Virus record (IMG/VR): IMGVR_UViG_3300029893_000001
Coordinates: 310,001 to 374,000 of that record
Length of the DNA: 64,000 bases
Origin: a virus
Strand: one strand, 5' to 3'
Numbering within the stretch: the stretch's first letter is position 1; every line of letters starts with the position of its first letter. Shown here in pieces: positions 7,147 to 61,809 of the stretch. A program made the translations under genes and the position numbers. The notes beneath the pieces are model-generated. The model was not told the origin of the DNA. It made no database searches and saw nothing but the letters and a program-made list of their open reading frames with translations.

Positions 7147-8828
7147 TCGTCGTCCTTAAATGAATCAAGCCATTCTTTCATGGTCTTAGGTCGCCGTTCC
7201 TTGGGAAGGCTCTCTGTACTTTGGGCAAAATCGAAGCCCCACTTCTTGTACAGCTTGTCCCTGAATCCCACCGCCGAGCCAGCCATGCTGTGGCTTGAGT
7301 GCCAGGTATATATGTGAACTCTTGGTTGCGGCTTCTCCCACTGTATGTTGTGGGTCTTCAGAAACTCGATGTTGGCACCAGACAAGTAACGGCGTACACG
7401 ACCTACTCGCTGCTCTTCTCTTTCCTTACCGAAGTTAGGAAAAGGCTGATGGATTGAATCGAGCGGAGGGATGTTGACGTTCTCATTGATCACTTGGGTT
7501 CCGATGATCACGCTTATGCGGCCACTTAGCAGCTCTTCTGCGTACCAGTTTTGCTCTTTCAGCTCCTGACCGCCGATCATCAACTCGCACCCGAATCCTT
7601 GCAGCTTTAGCTTCTGCTGAAGTCTAAACGCGTGATTCCTGCGCTCCGTGACTACAAGGATCTTACGTCCCTCTTCGCACTCCTTCAGGACTTCTTCGTA
7701 CAACGCCTCCTGATAATGGGCATTCCTGGCAAGGAAATTGACTAGTACAGGGAGCATGTACCTGCCCTTGAAAACCCGGTCAGGCACGTGGATGTTTGTC
7801 GGATGATAGATGACGATTGGTGTCATCTGCTCCTTTCGACCCCGTGCAGTTACTGGCCCAAGCGTGTCAAATATCGCGACGTGGGTCTGGTCTTTCCTAG
7901 ACGGAGTCGCCGTCTGGCCGCCTCGGTAATATGAGTTGAAGGCCCTTGTCGCTTGGTGGAATGTGGGCGCAGATTCATGGTGGGCTTCTTCACACCACAC
8001 CACACCAAAGTAGTTGGATAGCTTCTTACGGAGCTTTTTGCCCCTCTTCGAAGCCAAAGCCTGGAAGGTAGCAAACGTGATAGGGTAGTACTTACCTGGC
8101 CGGCTGACGAACTTACGGACAGGATTCCCCTCCTTATCTGTGCCCCACTTCCAGTCCTTGTTGAGAATTCCCACCAAATGCTCGCCGTGCTGCTCTTCCA
8201 GCTCGGCTATGTTTGTGTGTTCATAGAGTCCTTCAAATCCGACCATCAAATGTCGGACTTCCTGCGCCAAAAGAAGAACGCGAAAGCCCATCTTCGCAAC
8301 CAGCCAAGCCCATACTACAGTCTTTCCCCAGCCGGTGGGGGCCTGGATGATTCCGTATCCCTTCTTGAGCCAAACATTAGCGACTTCTTGCTGTTCTGGG
8401 TAGAGCTTACGATGACACTTTAGCTTGAATCCTAATTTGGGGGCGACGCGCTGATCGTCGATCCCAAGGTGGCCGAACACACGGTTAATCTTGCCCATGT
8501 TTCCACGAGCAAACGTTGTCCAGCCATCTTCTCGCCTTGCGTAAGTACGGAGAACGATTTCCTTCGTTACAGGAAGCTTTTTGTGAGTGAAGTGCTTGCA
8601 AACGTCATCGAGTGTATACCCCTTTGACTCACAAGTGACTCGACCTGGGCGCCACTTCTTTCCCCAGAGATCACAATTCGCGCATTGGGTAGGGAGATCA
8701 ACCATCGGTTGGTACTCCACCTCTTCAAAGCGATATGTGAACTCTTCTTCAGCTTCCGGCTCTACGTATTCTGACGGAACCCAGAGTACGTTGTTCAGGA
8801 CGCAAAGAGCATCGTCCTCGTTCGACAT
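7143..8828 (-). CDS. Superfamily 2 DNA/RNA helicase (UvsW/SSL2-like)
   Basis: In this 561-aa protein motif I is APTGWGKT (near residue 170), motif II is CEEAHH (EEAH variant of DEAH), and motif III TAT is in GGQTATPSR. Motifs V/VI are around GTQVINENVNIP and EQRVGRVRRYL. An N-terminal cysteine module (CANCDLWGKKW...CESKGYTLDDVC) likely binds zinc. T4 UvsW-type helicases unwind branched DNA and drive recombination-dependent replication, which would fit this operon. The start overlaps the dUTPase stop as TAATG. Confidence 0.88.
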   Translation of the reverse strand: MSNEDDALCVLNNVLWVPSEYVEPEAEEEFTYRFEEVEYQPMVDLPTQCANCDLWGKKWRPGRVTCESKGYTLDDVCKHFTHKKLPVTKEIVLRTYARREDGWTTFARGNMGKINRVFGHLGIDDQRVAPKLGFKLKCHRKLYPEQQEVANVWLKKGYGIIQAPTGWGKTVVWAWLVAKMGFRVLLLAQEVRHLMVGFEGLYEHTNIAELEEQHGEHLVGILNKDWKWGTDKEGNPVRKFVSRPGKYYPITFATFQALASKRGKKLRKKLSNYFGVVWCEEAHHESAPTFHQATRAFNSYYRGGQTATPSRKDQTHVAIFDTLGPVTARGRKEQMTPIVIYHPTNIHVPDRVFKGRYMLPVLVNFLARNAHYQEALYEEVLKECEEGRKILVVTERRNHAFRLQQKLKLQGFGCELMIGGQELKEQNWYAEELLSGRISVIIGTQVINENVNIPPLDSIHQPFPNFGKEREEQRVGRVRRYLSGANIEFLKTHNIQWEKPQPRVHIYTWHSSHSMAGSAVGFRDKLYKKWGFDFAQSTESLPKERRPKTMKEWLDSFKDDE

Positions 8829-9292
8829 TACTTACCTGTACTGCCGAATCCACCGGATCCGCGCTCCGTCTCGGACAAGGACTCGCTGACCTGGAACTCA
8901 ACATCAGGTAACCTACAGATGACAAGCTGGGCAATCTTTTCCCCTGCCTTCACCTGGTAAGCAGGACCAGTGTTGTAGAGAATTACCTGCACTTCCCCTC
9001 GATAGTCAGCATCGATGGTACCAGGAGCGTTGAGAACTGTGATACCATGCTTGAGTGCTAGACCGCTTCGAGGGCGAACTTGACCCTCATAACCTGGAGG
9101 GATCTCCATCGCGACGCCAGTTCGAATCAGCGTCCGGCCCCCAGGTAGGATCTTGGCATCCTCGATAGCATACAGGTCAAATCCTGCAGAGTCCTTGGTG
9201 GCCCTTTCAGGAAGTACTGCATTCTCGTGAAGCTTTTGTAGCCCCACGACAACCTTCTGCTTAGGTGCCATCTTTGCTGTCTTTTTAGCCAT
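8828..9292 (-). CDS. dut: Deoxyuridine 5'-triphosphate nucleotidohydrolase (dUTPase)
   Basis: This 154-aa protein carries all motifs of trimeric dUTPases: SAGFDLYA (motif 1), RPRSGLA (motif 2), GTIDADYRGEV (motif 3) and the C-terminal RGSGGFGSTG arm (motif 5). It converts dUTP to dUMP, limits uracil incorporation and feeds thymidylate synthesis. Start ATG 9292; translation is coupled to the KH-domain gene. Confidence 0.95.
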   Translation of the reverse strand: MAKKTAKMAPKQKVVVGLQKLHENAVLPERATKDSAGFDLYAIEDAKILPGGRTLIRTGVAMEIPPGYEGQVRPRSGLALKHGITVLNAPGTIDADYRGEVQVILYNTGPAYQVKAGEKIAQLVICRLPDVEFQVSESLSETERGSGGFGSTGK

Positions 9293-9636
9293 TATTCATT
9301 CTCCTGACGGACGCCACGAAATGCCTCAGAGTCCAGGGTGAGTTCGCCAGGAGAACCCTGAAGCTGTCGACGCCGTTCGTCATTTATTACGTTTAGAAGT
9401 ATGCGGAACCCGTGCTTTGCAGCCACGGCGTTCACAATCACCTCAACGGCCGAGATCGTGGTTCGCTTCGAACCAATGATCTTAGCAATCTCGGTTGAAG
9501 GTCCTGTAATCTCGATTGCACCAGTGACGCCTACGTGCGCTCCATCTATCTGGAGTGTGTCGGAGTCGTCGACTAGTTCTTCACACATGTGTTCGACAAG
9601 TGCGAACACCTTCCCAAAGCCTTCGTCGTTTGCCAT
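9292..9636 (-). CDS. KH-domain RNA-binding protein, KhpA-like
   Basis: In this 114-aa protein residues 10-85 follow the KhpA (YlqC) pattern: LVEHMCEELVDDSDTLQI, then GPSTEIAKIIGSKRTTISAVEVIVNAVAAKHG. The KH GxxG loop is GSKR, so the second Gly is missing, which may change nucleic-acid binding. Bacterial KhpA binds RNA broadly with KhpB and affects cell division and translation. With IF-1 in the same operon this may be an RNA/translation-control gene. Length is slightly above the ~75-aa family norm because of a charged C-terminal tail. Confidence 0.75.
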   Translation of the reverse strand: MANDEGFGKVFALVEHMCEELVDDSDTLQIDGAHVGVTGAIEITGPSTEIAKIIGSKRTTISAVEVIVNAVAAKHGFRILLNVINDERRRQLQGSPGELTLDSEAFRGVRQENE

Positions 9637-10997: not shown

Positions 10998-12263
10998 ATG
11001 CTCACCCACAAGGTCATTTATAGGCGTGATCTAAGGGGTTATCTAGCCTCATTCCGACTATCCTTTTTACCGGGAAGTGCTGAGATGCGACAAGATCTGA
11101 AGCTGCGACTTCAGCAAGTAGCCACAAAATTAGCGCTCGTACACCGCCTTCGAAAGGTCGCTCTGGCTACGGAAGAGGCGCTGATCGATCGCATGTCAGA
11201 GCGGTCCAAGAAGATTCTCTTGGACGTGCGCAGCAAATTCTTCCGTGCAGCCAAATACATTGAGCCCGCATTAGATGAGGCGGGTAGGACGGCCCTAAAC
11301 AAGGCGGTTAAAGAAGTAGGCAGGGTGGTCACAAATGCCGGCATAGTTGACGTGTCTGTGATCGAGGAAACCCATAATAGCCTAGACGATATGTGGAAAG
11401 AACTCTCGCGTGCCACGAGTGGCAACATTTCCGTGATGTACTTCTTCAATTCGTTTGACAGGTTTATCAAAGTCGCAATGCTAGGAGGCCTGCTTCAGAA
11501 TCACCGATTTGTGGAGCGCGCTAAGTCCGACCCTAGAGTACGGGAAAAGATTTACTCCGTAATGGAGAGGCTTGCGGAGCTTATCCCACAAGTACAATCA
11601 ATTCTGCAGAAGGCGATGGATTCTGTCAAGGTTGAGGCGCCTCCATCACAGCCCTCAAAGGAGATGAAGGATACCTCAGCGGAAGAAGCTGTCACGAATC
11701 AGCTAAGTGAAGCTGAATCACAGATGAGAGGCGTCGTTGACCAGCTTACGAAGGTCATCGTAGACAAGGCAGAAGAGTTGTTTGGCGTGGGCTCCGAGAT
11801 GGCCGAGGCGCTTGATGAGAATATCTTTGCAATCTACAACAAGCGACGAGTAAACCCTCAACTAAACCGGAATAGGAATTTCTATCAAGATGCATTGCAT
11901 CTGGAACACAGTCCGACTCACATTGATCTCGGAGAATTCCTAGACACCAAGGAAAAGAAGGCGATCTACCTTTCTTATCGGTCGTTCGTCATGGCAGCAC
12001 GGGCACTAGGTGTTGTGCAACACGCTAAAGCGAAACCCGAGCTAGTGCTGAAAAACCCGAAGCTTCGCGAGCTAGTCATCAAGGCGCAGCAAATCCTGAT
12101 GAAGCGCAAGGACACGATCGTACGATACTTGAAAGCGCTAAAGAAATCGAAAGAGGAAAAGAAGGACAAGGAGATCGGAATCCCTAAGGGGACATTCTCC
12201 GACTTCTTCGAGTCTCAGCAAGACGGCGGTACGTCCAGAGAACTTCCACGTGGCCTCTTTTGA
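10998..12263 (+). CDS. Hypothetical helical protein, 421 aa (plus strand)
   Basis: Long, mostly alpha-helical and Lys/Glu-rich, with no membrane segment or catalytic motif visible; the C-terminal third is very basic (KKSKEEKKDKE). It is the first of two plus-strand genes lying against the dominant orientation. No good Shine-Dalgarno precedes ATG 10998; an internal start at ATG 11083 (MRQDLKLRLQQ) is an alternative. It could be structural or virion-associated, but that is inference only. Confidence 0.7.
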   Translation: MLTHKVIYRRDLRGYLASFRLSFLPGSAEMRQDLKLRLQQVATKLALVHRLRKVALATEEALIDRMSERSKKILLDVRSKFFRAAKYIEPALDEAGRTALNKAVKEVGRVVTNAGIVDVSVIEETHNSLDDMWKELSRATSGNISVMYFFNSFDRFIKVAMLGGLLQNHRFVERAKSDPRVREKIYSVMERLAELIPQVQSILQKAMDSVKVEAPPSQPSKEMKDTSAEEAVTNQLSEAESQMRGVVDQLTKVIVDKAEELFGVGSEMAEALDENIFAIYNKRRVNPQLNRNRNFYQDALHLEHSPTHIDLGEFLDTKEKKAIYLSYRSFVMAARALGVVQHAKAKPELVLKNPKLRELVIKAQQILMKRKDTIVRYLKALKKSKEEKKDKEIGIPKGTFSDFFESQQDGGTSRELPRGLF

Positions 12264-12457
12264 TGCGCTCCGCTTCTACGACGTTCCGAACGTGATAGCT
12301 CTGTAAACGGGGAGAAAGCGTACGTCGGGAACTACTCCCGACATCTCTTACGCTTAGACGGCCCTGTCCACAGGCTTATGTACTACAACAGCAGCAGCGG
12401 TTCAGAGCAGTCTGATTGTCTTGCCCCGCTTTTTGGGGCTTCTACTACGAGGATTGC
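12264..12457 (+). other. Intergenic region with two hairpins
   Basis: Holds GTCGGGA-ACTAC-TCCCGAC around 12327-12345, then GCCCC-GCTTTTT-GGGGC at about 12423-12439. The second ends shortly before GAGGATTGC-ATG of the next gene and could be a terminator followed by a leader or a translation-control hairpin. Confidence 0.45.
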
Positions 12458-13810
12458 ATGAGCAAGCCGCATCGAGGGACAACGAAGCATGTTTCTTGGA
12501 TGATCAAGAAAGTCATCGAAGTTGCAGAGAAGCTTGGTGTCCCGGTGAAGGACCTTCATCGAGACGTCTTCCTTAAGAATGCCGGGGATGACGTAACACG
12601 TACAGACATCGACGCGTGTATGGCCTGGTCTCATTTGAAGACTCTAGCCGACACGAAGAGCAAAGCGATCCATGGGCCTGTGGGAGCAGATGATCTCCCT
12701 CTCGACCCCGCTGTGCCGGATGGCTACTTTGTTAAGCAGATCTCGACTCAGCTAGACAAGGCCGGAGACATCGAACGTCAGTGGATCAAGACTCCCCTGA
12801 GTCAGGCTCCCGGCATGCTGACAGACCAAGTCCCCGAGGGACATATCATCTCGGGAGTATCGACTCTGGTTTCCGGAGATGGCAATACTCTTGCTCAGTG
12901 GGTAAAAACCAGGAAAGAATCAGAGAGTAGGGAAGAACTACTTCTTCGATTGATGCGCGAGCTTCCGACGCAGATTCCTGCGAGAGAAAGCAGCATTCCG
13001 AAGCCAACGGGCTCTCTTTCCGACGATTTGCTTGCGGTGTATCCTATGGGCGATCCCCATATCGGGATGCTGAGCTGGGCACCGGAGACGGGGGAGGACT
13101 TCGATCTAGGCAAAGCGCAGAAGGTGATGACTTCTGCGATGCAAGAATTGGTAACCAGGGGACCCCGAACCAAGCAAGCCTTGATCGTCAACCTCGGTGA
13201 TTTCTTCCACGCCGATAACGAGCAGAACAGAACATCCAGATCGGGCCATGCTCTCGACGTTGACGGCCGGTGGCCCAAGGTCCTCCAGGTTGGGATCGAA
13301 ATCATGGTATTCATGATCGATCAGGCCCTCAAGCATCATGAATCAGTTCGAGTCGTCAATGAAATTGGCAATCACGACGATCATTCTGCAATGTTCCTGA
13401 GTGTGGTTCTCAGTGCTTATTATCGAAACGAACCTCGCGTCGAAATCGATATGAGCCCCAGCCGCTTCCACTGGCATAGGTTTGGTAAGAACCTTATCGG
13501 AATCACACACGGCCACAATACAAAGCATGGTGACCTTGAGTCCATCATGGCTGCAGAGAGGGCCTCTGACTGGGGTGAAACGATTCATCGATTCTGGTAC
13601 TGCGGACACATCCACCATAGCGTCAAGAAGGAGATGCGGGGATGTGTCATCGAGTCATTCAGAACATTGGCACCAAGAGACGCCTGGGCAGCTAATGCTG
13701 GGTACCGCTCTGGCCGCGACATGAACCGCATCACTCTTCACCGTGAGTACGGCGAAGTCGGCAGAGAGATCGTGAACGCAGCCTACCTTCAGGCTCGTTA
13801 TCGAGATTGA
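12458..13810 (+). CDS. Calcineurin-like metallophosphoesterase
   Basis: Start chosen at ATG 12458, 5 nt after GAGGA; 450 aa. The C-terminal half has the full metal-ligand set of the family: GDPHIG, GDFFHAD, GNHDD, ITHGHN and CGHIHH. The N-terminal ~190 residues (MSKPHRGTTKH...) have helix-turn-helix-like character and may bind nucleic acid. Members act on phosphodiesters or phosphomonoesters, from nucleases of the Mre11/SbcD type to protein phosphatases. The absence of an adjacent SbcC-type ATPase argues against SbcD. Confidence 0.85.
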   Translation: MSKPHRGTTKHVSWMIKKVIEVAEKLGVPVKDLHRDVFLKNAGDDVTRTDIDACMAWSHLKTLADTKSKAIHGPVGADDLPLDPAVPDGYFVKQISTQLDKAGDIERQWIKTPLSQAPGMLTDQVPEGHIISGVSTLVSGDGNTLAQWVKTRKESESREELLLRLMRELPTQIPARESSIPKPTGSLSDDLLAVYPMGDPHIGMLSWAPETGEDFDLGKAQKVMTSAMQELVTRGPRTKQALIVNLGDFFHADNEQNRTSRSGHALDVDGRWPKVLQVGIEIMVFMIDQALKHHESVRVVNEIGNHDDHSAMFLSVVLSAYYRNEPRVEIDMSPSRFHWHRFGKNLIGITHGHNTKHGDLESIMAAERASDWGETIHRFWYCGHIHHSVKKEMRGCVIESFRTLAPRDAWAANAGYRSGRDMNRITLHREYGEVGREIVNAAYLQARYRD

Positions 13811-17583: not shown

Positions 17584-18894
17584 TCAAACCTTGTCTGTTG
17601 TGTATCCGCGCGTGGTCTTCGACAAATCGAAATTTTCGTCGATGAATGCGATTACTCGCTCTGGGTCGACGTTCGAATTGAACAGAATGTTAGGCCCGTG
17701 ATTGTCAAGCATCACAGCGTAGATCATCCCGTCGTCAGAAACAGGCACGAGCCCGGCTGCCGTGTTGTAGCCGCACTCATTCGATCCACATTCAAAGTTC
17801 CTCTGAACTCTGGTGCTTAGAAAGCTGCCCCGCTTGAGTGGACAATGGAAATGAACAACGCAGTCCAGGTCTGGATTCTTGTTGAACATGATCCACTGAG
17901 ACCGACTACCCGCGCTGGGACGTGCACCGTACGCAATAGTTTCACGCTCGTTTAGGGTAATCATGCGTACCAGTTTGATACCATCGTTGTAATTAGAGCG
18001 CCTAATGCTGCACAGAACTGATCCATCTGGCTTCCTAACAGCAAAATGACCAACACATTTGCCGTTGAATGGCTGATACGCTCCCTTCTCGACACAGAAG
18101 GAAACTACCTTGCGCAAGGCCTCAGGGACCTCTTCAGAGCCGAACTCTACAAGTTCACCTTCCTCTATCTTGCATCGGGCGAAGGTTCCCTTTGACCTCA
18201 AGCCTGCCATCTCTACTAGGTCTGAGAGCACCCTCTCCCTATCAGTGGTGACGGAGTAACGAGCTTGCTCTGGCGTGATAATCATATTCACGCGAGTGTG
18301 AACATCGTTAGCAATCACTAGATTGCAATGGGCTTCTTTGCACAGCCTTAGTCCGGCGTCGAATTGATCATCTTCTGTAGCCCCGGCGGTGGTTTTGAAT
18401 CCTACTAGGAAGATGTCTTTGCGGGTCTCGCGAATCTTGCTGATGATCTTGGCAGCGGGGTATAGAGACATTAAGTAAGACGCACTCTTGCCGTCAGTTT
18501 GACGGGTTTGAAGTCTCGGCTGGTCCTTACCTGAGTCTGTGTTGGTATACACTATACCATCAAAGTCCATACGCGAACCGGAACTAGAGGTATCCTTGAT
18601 GAATCCTTCGAAATCGCACATCGCTACAGAGAAGAAAACCATCTTCGACTCAGGATCGGCTACAATCTTTTCGACGAGCTTCTCGACATCGGAGTTGGTT
18701 TCAATCTTAGAGTCAGGCGATCCCATCTTAGTAAGATGGAGACAAACCTCCATACCTTCGAAGAGAGGGTTTGGCCAATAGGTGATCATTCTGGCAATTG
18801 CTCTAGCTGTCTTGCCGCCGGCTGGAGCCGAAAGAGCAAGATGGGGGCGCACGTGGAATAGAGTACCGCCACCAAGTACGTGAATCTTCTTCAT
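17584..18894 (-). CDS. Fusion of a CoaB-like (phosphopantothenate-cysteine ligase) domain and a class-II-aldolase-like domain
   Basis: Start set at ATG 18894 (MKKIHVLGGGT), 8 nt after GGAG. Residues 1-235 follow the DNA/pantothenate-metabolism flavoprotein pattern, with an N-terminal GGGT nucleotide loop and FLVGFKTTAGATE then LVIANDVH, as in CoaB. Residues 270-436 resemble class II aldolase/adducin domains, with CVVHFHCPL supplying two metal-binding His. A link between coenzyme-A-type or nucleotide-sugar chemistry and aldol cleavage is possible; the substrate is unknown. It is co-transcribed with the ADP-ribosylglycohydrolase. Confidence 0.7.
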   Translation of the reverse strand: MKKIHVLGGGTLFHVRPHLALSAPAGGKTARAIARMITYWPNPLFEGMEVCLHLTKMGSPDSKIETNSDVEKLVEKIVADPESKMVFFSVAMCDFEGFIKDTSSSGSRMDFDGIVYTNTDSGKDQPRLQTRQTDGKSASYLMSLYPAAKIISKIRETRKDIFLVGFKTTAGATEDDQFDAGLRLCKEAHCNLVIANDVHTRVNMIITPEQARYSVTTDRERVLSDLVEMAGLRSKGTFARCKIEEGELVEFGSEEVPEALRKVVSFCVEKGAYQPFNGKCVGHFAVRKPDGSVLCSIRRSNYNDGIKLVRMITLNERETIAYGARPSAGSRSQWIMFNKNPDLDCVVHFHCPLKRGSFLSTRVQRNFECGSNECGYNTAAGLVPVSDDGMIYAVMLDNHGPNILFNSNVDPERVIAFIDENFDLSKTTRGYTTDKV

Positions 18895-46844: not shown

Positions 46845-46863
46845 ACCAGCTACGGGTACCTCT

Positions 46864-46909
46864 TAAAACACCCATACCCCTATTTGGGGGCTAAAATGGG
46901 AAAGGGAAA
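46864..46909 (-). repeat. Intergenic repeat, copy 1 (CCCTTTCCCATTTT ... GGGTATGGGT)
   Basis: Read on the minus strand: TTTCCCTTTCCCATTTT, then CCCCCAAATAGGGG (hairpin), then TATGGGT. Related copies lie at ~48190-48240, ~48452-48475 (second half only) and ~49320-49385. Position between genes suggests a terminator or start-region element. Confidence 0.5.
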
Positions 46910-47197
46910 TTACGGCTTGGGCCGACGCCGGTGTGCGATCTGCTCGAACTCGGCGAGCCCGACGTTTTGCACCAGATGAACCAGCTCCTGGAGAGGAACG
47001 ATGCGAGCCCGCCGAGCCCGGTCATGAGTCTCCCATAGCTCCACGTAAGGAACAACGGTCCCGTCCACCGTGTAGGTCACGACACGCATGTAGTGCGCAC
47101 CGTCGCGTGACTTCGACAGTACCTTATGCACCCGACCGGTGAACCCAGCACGTCGCATCCTTCGGCGTTCGAGGATGATGGAGTGAGGCGTAGCCAT
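46910..47197 (-). CDS. Hypothetical basic protein, 95 aa
   Basis: Starts MATPHSIILERRRMRR; Arg-rich with a beta-strand core (MRVVTYTVDGTVVPYVEL). Unrecognised. Confidence 0.6.
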   Translation of the reverse strand: MATPHSIILERRRMRRAGFTGRVHKVLSKSRDGAHYMRVVTYTVDGTVVPYVELWETHDRARRARIVPLQELVHLVQNVGLAEFEQIAHRRRPKP

Positions 47198-47226
47198 GAC
47201 CCGACTGTTACAGAACCCTGAGGGAT

Positions 47227-47490
47227 TTACTCCGTCGCCACTGAACTCCTATACAAGTCGATCTTGTCCTGCAGAAACAACCAGAATTCCGGCGTGGTCC
47301 CGAGTGCCTTCGACAGCCGTAGCGCGGTCAGCGGTGTGATCGACTGATGGCCGTTGACAATTCGATTCACGGTCTCTGTCGTCATACCGATATGTTTCGC
47401 CAGCTTCCTCTGCGAAATGCCTGCAGGCTCCAAGAATTCCTTTCGCAGGACTTCACCAGGTAAAGTAGGCATTCTGTTTTTAGGAGTCAT
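47227..47490 (-). CDS. HigA-like helix-turn-helix protein
   Basis: In this 87-aa protein the signature PGEVLRKEFLEPAGISQRKL, MTTETVNRIVNGHQSIT and LSKALGTTPEFWLFLQ matches XRE/HigA antitoxins (VapI type). No HigB toxin gene is adjacent. It may be an orphan antitoxin that blocks host toxins, or a transcription repressor. Confidence 0.85.
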   Translation of the reverse strand: MTPKNRMPTLPGEVLRKEFLEPAGISQRKLAKHIGMTTETVNRIVNGHQSITPLTALRLSKALGTTPEFWLFLQDKIDLYRSSVATE

Positions 47491-47527
47491 GTTGCTTTTC
47501 TCACAAGGGATGGCGCAGTTGGGATTA

Positions 47528-47794
47528 CTACAGCTCTGTTGTATCAGTTGATTGTCTTTCTGCCCGGAGCAGTTGTAGTTCGGCTAAGTCGAGTCCTGTC
47601 ATTTTTGCGATGACTTCGTCACTCGGATCCACAGAGTCGGCGAGAATTCCAACCGCACGTCGCAGTCTCTCGTTATTCGAGAGCAGCATCCTAATGAGCG
47701 CGGTGAGCGTTCTGATATCCTTATGAACGTCTGGGTTGGTCTTTTCCCACCGCAATTCGATCGTCTGAATTGTGTTTCGTACGATATCGCTCAT
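47528..47794 (-). CDS. Hypothetical helical protein, 88 aa
   Basis: Leu-rich helices, with a C-terminal segment (SDEVIAKMTGLDLAELQLL) that resembles a helix-turn-helix. 1-nt overlap with the upstream gene. Confidence 0.6.
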   Translation of the reverse strand: MSDIVRNTIQTIELRWEKTNPDVHKDIRTLTALIRMLLSNNERLRRAVGILADSVDPSDEVIAKMTGLDLAELQLLRAERQSTDTTEL

Positions 47795-49422: not shown

Positions 49423-49626
49423 TCAGTCGTCTTCCACAAGCTTCCACAAGGACTCGATCGGTTTACGTTCTCCCAACGTGCAGCGATATCTCTCACCTCC
49501 CGTGCACGTGAATTCTACGTACGGTGTGTACGAGCCCCACTGCCCCACGGTCCAGCCAACCGAGTGAATCGTTTCGACCGTCACCTCTAGCTCGCCCACC
49601 TTGTACGTCTCGCCTACCTCAAGCAT
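49423..49626 (-). CDS. Hypothetical protein, 67 aa
   Basis: Starts MLEVGETYKVGELEVTVE; all-beta, acidic. Last gene before the hairpin wall. Unrecognised. Confidence 0.6.
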   Translation of the reverse strand: MLEVGETYKVGELEVTVETIHSVGWTVGQWGSYTPYVEFTCTGGERYRCTLGERKPIESLWKLVEDD

Positions 49627-49729
49627 GCGTCAGTCTCCTACTCTCCCCGCCCCGAGCGTCGCACGAACCCACTCCCGAACTCAAGCAGTTTCTAGGAACT
49701 CAGTCCCCTACTACCCAGTTTACCGGGTG

Positions 49730-49948
49730 CCCCAAAATCCATTTTGGATTTTGGGGCGTGAAAAACCCCCGGAGGGTTTTTCACTGGTTTTTGCAAAGCA
49801 AAAACCAACGCATTTTGCCGGGTAGGCAAAATGCGAGGCCCATTTTGCTCCGGGCAAAATGGGCGGGAGGCCGTTCGCTGGATTTTCCCCGGAGGAAAAT
49901 CCAGCCCTTAACGGCCGACTGGCCCGGGGCTTTTGCCCCGGGCCGGTC
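49730..49948. repeat. Array of seven contiguous perfect hairpins
   Basis: H1 730-756, H2 758-784, H3 785-807, H4 809-835, H5 838-864, H6 878-904 (inside an outer 7-bp stem 869-875/910-916) and H7 917-948 (positions +49000). Arms are 10-11 bp and fully complementary, most with an AAAA or TTTT core flanked by GC pairs; loops are 3-5 nt (CCGGA occurs twice). Spacers are 0-2 nt except around H6. No coding frame is plausible. The array stands exactly at the border between the operonic region and the single-gene cassettes, so a bidirectional terminator/insulator is the simplest idea. Confidence 0.85.
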
Positions 49949-50204
49949 AGTGGCAGGACACCCAGAATCCGGGCCGGACCATGACGGCCCGATTGACCCG
50001 GCGGGTGACGTGCGCCCCGTACCGATTGCACGCGGCCTGCGTTTCGGCGAGGAGCGCATCCCCGCTCGACGCTTCCGAGCGGGGCGTCGAGGAATACTCG
50101 ACGCGGGCCGGCGTCGTCGCGCCGCAGCCCGAGGCGAGCAGCACGATGCAGACGAGCAGGAGCGAGAAGAGGCCAGCGCCGAGAGCCTTGATTTCGTCCA
50201 TCAT
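49947..50204 (-). CDS. Small lipoprotein (spanin/Rz1-like size)
   Basis: In this 85-aa protein a signal peptide LFSLLLVCIVLLASGC ends in a lipobox with Cys near residue 27. The mature part is short and Arg/Ala-rich. GGGAGGACC precedes ATG 50204. It would be lipid-anchored in the cell envelope, where outer-membrane spanins act in lysis; no inner-membrane partner is adjacent. Confidence 0.75.
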   Translation of the reverse strand: MMDEIKALGAGLFSLLLVCIVLLASGCGATTPARVEYSSTPRSEASSGDALLAETQAACNRYGAHVTRRVNRAVMVRPGFWVSCH

Positions 50205-57030: not shown

Positions 57031-57245
57031 GAGCGAGGCTCGGAGCCGGAATCCGAGATTAGTCTGTTTTCGCCTCTTGGCCTAGCTCCGCCTCCGTGCC
57101 TAAACCTACACGGCCAGCCTCTACACTAGGTTGCAGACGAATCCAGGGTCTAGCCGCTTTTGCCTTGGATGACTAGTCCTCGGCGCTTGCACCCACGGGG
57201 GCGTCACCCCTTGGGGTATCTGGATTCCGGCTCCGAGCCTCGCTC
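57031..57245 (-). ncRNA. Large leader RNA closed by a perfect 24-bp stem (riboswitch- or MITE-like)
   Basis: 57031-57054 and 57222-57245 are exact inverted copies. Between them 167 nt fold into several helices: ACCCC-AA-GGGGT, CCGTG-N10-CACGG, ATCCA...TGGAT, plus GACTAGTC palindromes. The element begins ~13 nt after the promoter at 57259 and ends 16 nt before ATG 57014, so it forms the 5' leader of a two-gene unit. A small inverted-repeat transposon remnant is the main alternative; no target-site duplication is obvious. Confidence 0.6.
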
Positions 57246-59859: not shown

Positions 59860-59932
59860 TGACCCCAACGGGATTTGAACCCGTGTTCTCGCCGTGAAAG
59901 GGCGGCGTCCTAGGCCACTAGACGATGGGGCC
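59860..59932 (-). tRNA. tRNA-Glu (anticodon TTC)
   Basis: 73 nt. Acceptor GGCCCCA/TGGGGTC, D-arm and loop TCGTCTAGTGG as in bacterial tRNA-Glu, anticodon loop CTTTCAC, T-arm ACGGG-TTTGAAT-CCCGT, discriminator A. One mismatch at 27-43. The 5' end is 12 nt from the promoter. Confidence 0.92.
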
Positions 59933-59944
59933 GTGTCCTCGCCG

Positions 59945-59963
59945 ATTACTATCGGCGGGGTTC
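59945..59963 (-). promoter_or_regulatory. Phage promoter element (tRNA-Glu)
   Basis: GAACCC-CGCC-GATAGTA, ending 12 nt before the mature 5' end of tRNA-Glu. Confidence 0.8.
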
Positions 59964-60159
59964 ACTTCTTTCCGTGGGTGGACTCCCACCATTTCAGATA
60001 CTCGTAATCCTTTCGGTCGAGCATCCGATAATAGGACTCGGGGTCCGCGTCGAGTTGGTATTCATTCTCAGCGGCGTTTTGGTCGACGCCAGGAAATGTC
60101 TCCTCGTACCTGACTCGTCGATTTTTCTTACGCTGTTTCTGCTGTCGTCGCCGTCGCAT
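59962..60159 (-). CDS. Small basic/acidic protein, 65 aa
   Basis: Starts with RRRRQQKQRKKNRRVR and ends acidic/aromatic (YEYLKWWESTHGKK). The ATG is 2 nt from a promoter element without ribosome site. Confidence 0.62.
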   Translation of the reverse strand: MRRRRQQKQRKKNRRVRYEETFPGVDQNAAENEYQLDADPESYYRMLDRKDYEYLKWWESTHGKK

Positions 60160-60182: not shown

Positions 60183-60210
60183 GCCGAATAGGCCCCGAAA
60201 GGCCATCGGC
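60183..60210 (-). terminator. Terminator after the tRNA-like element
   Basis: GCCGATGGCC-TTTCGG-GGCCTATTCGGC-type hairpin, then GTTAACC. Confidence 0.65.
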
Positions 60211-60211
60211 A

Positions 60212-60407
60212 GAAGCGAATCGCAGTGGGGAGGCCTACAGAGGCGGATAAAGGCAAACCAATACCCGGAACCCTCGGTTCCGACGGGATTCGAACCCGCA
60301 TCACCGCCGCACCTGGTGCCACAGGACGCCCACTAGACAGCTCCGCGTTGGCACTCACGGAACGTTCATCGTAGGTCCCTGTAAGCCGCCCCACTGCGAT
60401 TCGCTTC
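60212..60407 (-). repeat. Long inverted repeat enclosing the tRNA-like gene
   Basis: Arms 60212-60240 and 60379-60407: 19 bp perfect (GAAGCGAATCGCAGTGGGG) and then mostly paired to TACAG. A transcript would place the tRNA-like gene on a long hairpin. Confidence 0.7.
60275..60364 (-). tRNA. tRNA-like gene, anticodon not assignable
   Basis: 90 nt, the length of class II tRNAs. Acceptor pairs GTTCCG/CGGAAC with a C-C mismatch at 1-72; T-arm GCGGG-TTCGAAT-CCCGT is canonical. A GCAC-CAG-GTGC hairpin could be the variable arm. I could not fold a normal D-arm and anticodon loop, so it may be degenerate or a structural mimic. Confidence 0.45.
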
Positions 60408-61150
60408 TTGGTTATTGTTTCCGCAGATTCAGTTTCCTCCGCCCTGCGCTGCGGCTCAATCTGAGTGACCATGAGAAGGGAGTGCAGTATTCGTTAGCCT
60501 CGTTGGAGATAGTGTGCCCTTTGACTGCCGAGGGTGCAATAGCAATCTGCACCTAAACATAGGCCCGGCAATCTACAGACGATAGTCCAGCGAAGCACCG
60601 AACAATGCGTGTAACCTACGCGATGGTCAAACAATCGAGATGAGTACGAAAGGGAGTTAATTGGCGAGTCAAGGCGTCCTCCTAACGAGACTCTTTTGGG
60701 CCAGCTTTCGCTTTTAAGTGGCGTGGAGGTACGACACAATCTGCAACGTCCAGTAGCAGAAGCCCTGCCCTTGTACTCAGAACATTATCCAGCATATGCT
60801 GGAAGCGAATGGCTATGTTCCTTCGCCACCCGTTCCCCTTGAGCCGCCTTTAGCGGACGCTCATTGGTCCTATCGGAAGCCTAGGCACATCTTGCCCAAG
60901 ATTCCAATAGTATCAATTCAATCTCCGAGCGGTCCAGCCAGGGGGACCGATCCCTGCCACGAACTTAGCGGCGGCGCGTCATTCGTGGCTATATAGTCTC
61001 GAAGTGGTTACGACTCTTGCCCGACAAGTGTCGCAGCAATCAACTGGTCCAGGGGAAGGATTCAGTTGAGTAGGTATGCTTAGTTGCTTCTTGGCGGGTT
61101 TCCTACTAAACCCAGCCAGTCATAAGCTGTAGAACAGGAGAATCATTTCC
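60408..61150 (-). ncRNA. Candidate large structured non-coding RNA
   Basis: More than 700 nt without a credible gene in a genome that otherwise has almost no gaps. It contains many independent perfect hairpins: GCCACGAA/TTCGTGGC, GGGTTT-N6-AAACCC, CAACTG/CAGTTG, CGGTCC/GGACCG, ATCTT-GGGC-AAGAT, CCGC-TAAAG-GCGG, GAGTC/GACTC, TCTGC/GCAGA, an AGC-GAAA-GCT tetraloop, and a 14-nt palindrome CCAGCATATGCTGG (~60793-60806). Placement next to tRNA genes in a phage recalls the GOLLD and ROOL giant RNAs. No promoter element of the common type is seen at its 5' side. Strand inferred from neighbours. Confidence 0.6.
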
Positions 61151-61171
61151 AGTCCTCCGGCTGTGGGATTC

Positions 61172-61206
61172 ATTAAACGCGAAGAGGGGCCCGAAGGCCC
61201 CTCTTC
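61172..61206 (-). terminator. Terminator of the DUF3228 gene
   Basis: GAAGAGGGGCC-TTCG-GGCCCCTCTTC then GCGTTTAA; overlaps the stop codon region. Confidence 0.82.
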
Positions 61207-61760
61207 TATGCGTCCACCATCGCCCGACGGCTCCAGTAGAGGATTGCCTTGGCGAAATCCTCCGCCGAATAGGTGGCCGGCGTTCCTCCGGGGAGACCCA
61301 GGAAGTTGCGGGCCATCGCCATCGGAGTCTGGGGCTCCGGCTCCTCGGTGGGGCGGGCGTTGATCGAGACGATCTCCCACTCGCATTCCGTCGAGGCGTC
61401 GTTGCCGAGAACGTCGTGCCTGTAGAGCACGATCTCGACGACCTTCGCGGGAGCCTTCTCGCCCTTCGCACGCACCTCGATGTAGGGCTCCTCGCCCTCT
61501 CGCCGCGCCGAGAACGTCGCCCGGAGCGTCGTCTTCGGAGTGACCTCGATGACGCCACACTTGAAGTAGTGCGCCTGACTCTCGGTCATCGGGATGAGCA
61601 GAACGCCGTCGCGGTAGCCCGGCTTCGCCTCGGAGAACTGCTGCTCGACGAAAGCGATGAGCACATCCCACTTCGCATCGTGGGTGGCGATGAAGTGTGA
61701 GAAGGGGCTCTCCGGCGTCTGGCGACGCACGAAGTCATTGATTCCGATGAGGTTACCCAT
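61206..61760 (-). CDS. DUF3228-family protein
   Basis: 184 aa from ATG 61760 (GGGAGG upstream). LLIPMTESQAHYF, EPYIEVRAKGEKAPAKVVEI, VLYRHDVL, CEWEIVSINA and MARNFLGLPGGTPATYSAEDF follow the DUF3228 family closely. The biochemical role of the family is not known to me. Confidence 0.82.
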   Translation of the reverse strand: MGNLIGINDFVRRQTPESPFSHFIATHDAKWDVLIAFVEQQFSEAKPGYRDGVLLIPMTESQAHYFKCGVIEVTPKTTLRATFSARREGEEPYIEVRAKGEKAPAKVVEIVLYRHDVLGNDASTECEWEIVSINARPTEEPEPQTPMAMARNFLGLPGGTPATYSAEDFAKAILYWSRRAMVDA

Positions 61761-61790
61761 GATTGATTCGGCCTCCCTTTGCCTCGCCAA

Positions 61791-61809
61791 ACTACTATCG
61801 ATTGGGTTC
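61791..61809 (-). promoter_or_regulatory. Phage promoter element (DUF3228 gene)
   Basis: GAACCC-AATC-GATAGTA, ending 30 nt before ATG 61760; it overlaps the last codons of the upstream gene. Confidence 0.78.

Follow-up and report, generated by a model that had tools for sequence, protein, structure and literature searches.

A Probable Stem-Caged, Y-RNA-like tRNA Mimic beside a Long Gene-Free Stretch of a Large Tailed Phage

On the minus strand of a large tailed phage, the locus described here is on balance best read as a non-coding unit whose last ~200 nt form a YrlA-type, circularly permuted tRNA mimic on a near-perfect 31-bp stem. These last ~200 nt are the best-supported part of the unit. 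An earlier note had placed a structured non-coding RNA, perhaps GOLLD/ROOL-like, at 60408-61150. The analysis supports a non-coding region whose 3' domain resembles an RNA, but not GOLLD or ROOL, and the noted coordinates missed the strongest structure, which adjoins the low edge of the region.

The Phage and the Locus

The window, that is, the whole 64-kb stretch of DNA that was analysed, covers bases 310001-374000 of a 392,328-base IMG/VR virus record. The large tailed phage encodes a DnaB-type helicase, helicases, and exonucleases. Its DnaB is ~30% identical to those of isolated phages, with Pseudomonas jumbo phages, such as Lu11, as the best matches. Closer relatives by DnaB (70-80%) are three IMG/VR contigs, and by position none of the three reaches the locus. 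The genome contains ~43 tRNA matches and one tmRNA (L121:3641-4041, minus strand). A CCA-adding enzyme with a PolyA_pol domain is encoded at L096:12257-13519 (minus strand). The PF09414 RNA ligase family gives two clear matches and one weak match (G000:C1 139647-140105, 147098-147700, and 99832-100326, minus strand); RtcB was not found alongside them.

The region was earlier described as lying beside tRNA genes. That setting comprises one tRNA gene, a tRNA-Glu at 59860-59932, which is the single tRNA gene near the region at a distance of ~480 nt, and the permuted tRNA-mimic module of the Y-RNA type described below. The bulk of the tRNA matches is found at ~89-147 kb of the record, more than 220 kb away.

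The non-coding unit extends from ~61180 to 60183 (about 1 kb) and is flanked by two intergenic hairpins whose type recurs. At its 5' edge, the GC-rich hairpin GAAGAGGGGCC-TTCG-GGCCCCTCTTC (61181-61206, minus strand) ends the upstream gene. Hairpins like this one, followed by TTCGCGTTTAA, separate genes elsewhere in the window. At the opposite edge, the closing GC hairpin GCCGAUGGCCUUUCGGGGCCUAUUCGGC (60183-60210, minus strand) is followed by GTTAA and a ribosome-binding site. On either side, the genes with coding-like codon composition lie on the minus strand. The upstream gene (61206-61763, 185 aa) and the next downstream candidate gene (59962-60159, 65 aa) belong to no known family. A mini ORF, MILLFYSL (61120-61146, minus strand), is preceded by a good Shine-Dalgarno sequence, GGAGGA, and stands at the very start of the unit; it could be a chance occurrence or a leader peptide.

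Transcription of the region, if it occurs at all, would proceed from the minus strand. A promoter-like motif, AACCC-N(4-6)-GATAnTA, recurs at more than 20 sites in the part of the window from ~30 to 64 kb, all on the minus strand. The sites are mostly located just 5' of genes, for example at 59962, 61808, and 62546, and one precedes the tRNA-Glu gene. The motif is also found in one of the relatives (G001). No copy lies directly upstream of the non-coding unit. Since the nearest one upstream is that at 61808, ahead of the preceding 185-aa gene, the unit would be transcribed either by read-through from this motif or from an unrecognised promoter.

Anatomy of the tRNA Mimic

The tRNA-like element is enclosed by a 30-nt inverted repeat of 93% complementarity (60211-60240 and 60379-60408). 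The repeat is part of a near-perfect stem of 31 bp (60211-60242 and 60377-60408), in which 20 and 11 pairs are separated by one mismatch. Stem and mimic together (60190-60420) fold on the minus strand with a z-score of -7.4.

Along the minus strand, the 5' arm of the stem (60377-60408) is followed by an insert of ~68 nt (60309-60376), which has a hairpin of its own, GUUCCGUG/CGCGGAGC. The spacer at this position is far shorter in the Y RNAs found elsewhere in the phage. Next comes the 3' strand of the mimic, the anticodon-stem-like GGCGG (60304-60308), which can pair with CCGCC at 60242-60246, and then the T-arm GCGGG-UUCGAAU-CCCGU (60283-60299). The acceptor 3' strand CGGAACC follows the T-arm in tRNA register and opens the acceptor hairpin CGGAACC-GAG-GGUUCCG (60266-60282). 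In this hairpin the 3' strand, a 3-nt linker, and the 5' strand stand in permuted order, with 7/7 pairs. The D-arm-like hairpin GGUA-UUGGUUUGCCUU-UAUC (60246-60265) carries the GG of a D-loop, and its last base overlaps the anticodon-stem-like 5' strand of the mimic, CCGCC. The 3' arm of the stem (60211-60242) completes the element. The T-arm, the acceptor hairpin, the D-arm-like hairpin, and the GGCGG/CCGCC pair are a tRNA in circularly permuted order.

ARAGORN does not call the element as an ordinary tRNA gene. When the element is rejoined to ordinary order, the program accepts 33 forms, and when its downstream half is shuffled, acceptance is lost in all trials (0/20). A scan for permuted tRNAs was run over 478 kb, comprising the phage and the contigs of its three relatives. 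The scan required a T-arm, an in-register acceptor 3' strand, a short linker, a matching 5' strand, and acceptance by ARAGORN after rejoining. Eight elements were recovered, the window one included, and all lie on the minus strand of the phage; the three relatives' contigs and a reversed control each yielded none. The T-arm, the acceptor hairpin, and the D-like hairpin are formed in the lowest-energy fold of the window element. The GGCGG/CCGCC anticodon-like stem is absent from this fold, in which the two strands have other partners, and enforcing it costs ~8 kcal/mol.

Ro60 and Y RNAs in the Same Genome

At least eight Y RNA elements are located near 97-127 kb of the phage genome, all on the minus strand (L119:8220-8349, 8577-8716, and 8880-9012; L120:1482-1612, 9312-9457, 12201-12335, 12344-12475, and 18728-18876). 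The eight carry different tRNA mimics, several of which resemble particular tRNAs (for example, Leu-, Glu-, and Trp-like halves). Matches to the YrlA model, RF02553, reach 61.7 bits (E 6e-14), under the Rfam gathering score of 69. The flanking strands of the elements pair with each other; one conserved strand reads GAAUGC...GACUACA and the opposite one ACnUCCUGUC. When six elements are aligned, 19 of the 28 consensus pairs are changed on both sides with pairing kept. The model R1, built from these six, recovers two full copies from outside its own alignment (74.5 and 57.9 bits), as well as three stem-only forms and one mimic-only form. The stem-only mini forms, in which the Y RNA stem motif is kept and the tRNA mimic is missing, are found at L120:18367-18430, L119:8497-8568, and L120:8371-8406 (minus strand). 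The last of these lies directly 5' of a tRNA-Glu. Another permuted tRNA mimic, at L121:1568-1639 (G000 ~128.6 kb, minus strand), resembles the window element in that it does not have the shared stem motif.

The Ro60/Rsr protein of the phage has 558 aa and is encoded on the minus strand at G000:C1 ~95509-97185 (L145:811-2487). It contains the vWA_Ro60 (3.7e-14) and TROVE (2.8e-6) domains, and residues 29-542 match the structure of D. radiodurans Rsr, 2nvo, with an E value of 2.9e-21. Two of the Y RNAs (97220-97349 and 97577-97716) lie directly 5' of its gene. On sequence grounds, this jumbo phage has an rsr-Y RNA cluster at the 97-kb locus. Earlier literature mentions YrlA in phages and a Ro60-like protein in a jumbo phage (PMC7765460, citing Sim and Wolin 2018). 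The permuted elements had first been read as permuted tRNA genes, a reading that the YrlA match and the Ro60 gene replaced. By analogy with the general architecture of Y RNAs, the GAAUGC...GACUACA/ACnUCCUGUC motif is presumed to be the Ro-binding site.

Relation of the Window Element to Known RNAs

As in YrlA, a long stem bears a T-arm, an acceptor hairpin, and a D-arm in permuted order, and Ro60 and several Y RNAs are encoded elsewhere in the phage genome. The window copy differs from YrlA in several respects. It scores 16.3 bits with RF02553 and 17.7 with R1, in both cases over the T-arm and acceptor hairpin only, and pairs of adjacent ordinary tRNAs do no worse with R1 (17-21 bits). A score of at least 69 bits with RF02553 is reached neither by the window element nor by the best copy of the phage. 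The stem motif common to the other copies is absent, the stem here being a duplex. This near-perfect helix of 31 bp stands in place of two short stems around an internal loop. The window copy also has the 68-nt insert, follows a 750-nt non-coding body, and is located far from the Ro60 gene. Because of the absent motif, the long duplex, the insert, and matches that cover only the T-arm and acceptor, the element is not filed as a Y RNA. It is described here as a Y-RNA-like tRNA mimic.

Two other systems share parts of this anatomy. Circularly permuted tRNA genes of algae and Thermofilum have the same order of 3' half, linker, and 5' half, and in these genes the tRNA-splicing endonuclease cuts a bulge-helix-bulge motif to give real tRNAs (PMC3978253, PMC3218864). 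In the window element, by contrast, a Y-RNA-like stem is formed by the flanks, and an anticodon loop is not apparent. In MALAT1/mascRNA, too, a long non-coding RNA has a tRNA-like element on its 3' side. However, mascRNA is a minihelix in ordinary order, and the score here is only 16.3 bits.

The Gene-Free Body

The gene-free body (60409-61165, 757 nt) is an orphan stretch of non-coding DNA with modest structure on its minus strand. No hidden conserved protein frame was found in the region: with stops masked, Pfam gave no match above cut-off in six-frame translations and PHROG gave none in the three minus-strand frames. The claim that the region is non-coding is upheld in this respect. Whether it is also the longest gene-free stretch of the window, as had been claimed, depends on the ORF threshold. 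It is so at thresholds of at least 83 or at least 90 aa (60473-61105, 633 nt). At 100 aa, however, a gap of 923 nt at 46847-47769 is longer, and at 60 aa the region does not stand out.

A blastn search for the body in phage records (E<=10) gave nothing beyond chance matches of 20 nt, and no homologue was detected within the phage genome or in IMG/VR records of the relatives identified. Protein-guided scans with neighbouring or nearby genes and the CCA-adding enzyme, one query of which was probably in the wrong reading frame, also found none; these searches for relatives used peptide patterns from single proteins, by which diverged relatives can be missed. Two further candidates for the region were rejected. 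For a replication origin, neither a repeat array nor a GC-skew switch was found; for a mobile element, no second copy of the inverted repeat was found in the genome.

The evidence for structure in the body consists of single-sequence folding statistics. The folding energy of the body on the minus strand is -274.9 kcal/mol, compared with -246.1 for shuffles (z -3.5; 0/100 shuffles), and the plus strand gives a z-score of -1.7. With the stem included, the minus-strand value becomes -6.2. For 375-nt blocks of the surrounding 20 kb, the mean minus-strand z-score is -2.15 (sd 2.07). Against this background, the 5' half of the body stands out slightly on the minus strand (z -4.5 to -5.2), whereas the 3' half (z -1.4 to -1.8) does not stand out. 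The known ROOL region of L. salivarius pMP118, used for calibration, gives -5.8 on the RNA strand and -3.0 on the other strand, and its halves give -6.3 and -1.1. Because its z-score is modest relative to both the 20-kb background and this calibration, the body is described as compatible with a large RNA, of which a folding statistic is no proof.

The smaller features reported for the body fared differently. It had been called full of independent perfect hairpins, but its richness in hairpins is ordinary. Four hairpins of at least 6 bp are present, compared with a mean of 1.5 in shuffles (12/200 reach 4), and other 757-nt blocks of the window average 3.1, with 29 of the 79 reaching 4. The self-complementary palindrome exists and is longer than the 14 nt first given. 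It is a perfect 16-mer, TCCAGCATATGCTGGA (60788-60803), and one of three palindromes of at least 16 nt in the 64 kb. The GNRA tetraloop was also found, in the hairpin AGC-GAAA-GCU at 60712-60703 on the minus strand. Elsewhere in the window, the strongest folding signal of the scanned part comes from 49625-50000 (z -12 on the minus and -10 on the plus strand), which sits in a GC-rich island with large GC hairpins. A perfect 24-nt inverted repeat with a 167-nt spacer is located at 57031-57054 and 57222-57245.

These observations leave room for a reading that is possible, though clearly less probable than the preferred one, in which the body is non-functional or decayed intergenic DNA and the functional RNA is the small stem-caged tRNA mimic (60183-60410) alone. 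The background-like folding of the 3' half, the ordinary hairpin count, and the missing homologues would all agree with decay, as would the other gaps of 0.7-1.4 kb without 85-aa ORFs that occur in the phage genome. The minus-strand signal of the 5' half (z -3.7 to -5.2), however, is stronger than that of the plus strand. The body has an almost balanced base composition (197 G, 199 C, 177 A, and 184 T), unlike neighbouring coding DNA, and a long non-coding stretch amid closely packed genes would tend towards loss.

Comparison with GOLLD and ROOL

The proposed search with the Rfam models for GOLLD (RF02032) and ROOL (RF03087) was carried out with cmscan on the region and on the whole 392-kb genome. 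Neither model matched at the gathering score or at E<=10. The same scan recovered the known ROOL of L. salivarius pMP118, taken from the locus given in PMC5643018, at 130.4 bits. ROOL identity is rejected with this working positive control; GOLLD identity is not supported by the search, whose control covered ROOL. What the locus shares with GOLLD is the size class, the phage origin, and the fact that a tRNA can sit inside the RNA, since the GOLLD linker holds tRNAs in some cases (PMC12286853); no match to it in sequence or structure was obtained at E<=10 in the region or the genome. With ROOL it shares the size class and the occurrence in phages, frequently near tRNAs, again without a match.

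It is unlikely that the locus encodes a novel giant ornate RNA of ~990 nt with a mode of action like that of GOLLD or ROOL, for instance a multimeric cage in which the tRNA-like piece serves as cargo or linker. The size, the phage origin, and the tRNA-like insert would suit it, as would the minus-strand folding of the body alone and with the stem, the self-complementary 16-mer, and the lopsided halves, which real ROOL also shows. However, Rfam shows no similarity at E<=10 to a large RNA of any family, GOLLD and ROOL included, although a real ROOL is detectable, and the fold signal is below that of ROOL and comes without homologues.

Other Readings of the Locus

It is slightly more doubtful still that the element is an ordinary but degenerate tRNA gene and that the stem and body are unrelated intergenic DNA. 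In ordinary order, cmscan with RF00005 does give 19.2 bits (cut-off 29), with a 6-bp acceptor, GUUCCG/CGGAAC, but the D and anticodon arms then misfit. The permuted reading, on the other hand, yields the complete 7/7 acceptor, the D-arm-like hairpin, and a 5-bp anticodon-like stem in the architecture of the phage's other elements, and a 31-bp stem is unexpected around a tRNA pseudogene.

A hidden or decayed protein gene, such as an inverted homing endonuclease, is close to refuted: nt 389-723 of the RNA, in the body (60458-60792 of the window), weakly match the antisense strand of a homing endonuclease gene that is intact in a relative (G001:C1:21010-21339; nhmmer E 0.0017, compared with 0.012 for the best of 600 shuffles), but protein-level support is absent from a frameshift-tolerant alignment, from a nine-member endonuclease profile over six frames, and from Pfam, which has no match above cut-off in any frame.

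Proposed Working and Meaning

Under the preferred reading, a non-coding unit that ends in the permuted mimic, we infer that the window element is a mimic of the Y-RNA type that has diverged and that shows a tRNA-shaped surface to tRNA-handling enzymes or nucleases. The long helix would hold out a tRNA-shaped knob that tRNA-binding enzymes could recognise, and the mimic may act as a decoy or tether for tRNA-handling enzymes or nucleases. Tethering to Ro60 would not be expected, because the element is without the motif presumed to bind Ro. The transcript may include the body as a long 5' segment that is released or degraded.

A more far-reaching version, which we regard as rather unlikely, would make the whole unit one RNA of ~990 nt and of a new class. 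It would consist of an orphan folded body and a Y-RNA-type mimic on the 31-bp stem, in a phage with its own Ro60/Y RNA system, and the mimic would dock tRNA-handling enzymes onto this large RNA.

Work on bacterial Y RNAs and Ro60 has so far covered few organisms. This phage offers a natural series within one genome: besides the Ro60 gene, it has at least eight Y RNAs whose mimics differ, three forms with the stem only, and, in the window, a form with the mimic but not the shared stem motif. With such a series, the contribution of the stem could be tested independently of that of the tRNA mimic. Should the 750-nt body and the mimic turn out to belong to a single RNA, the locus would represent a new class of large phage RNA.
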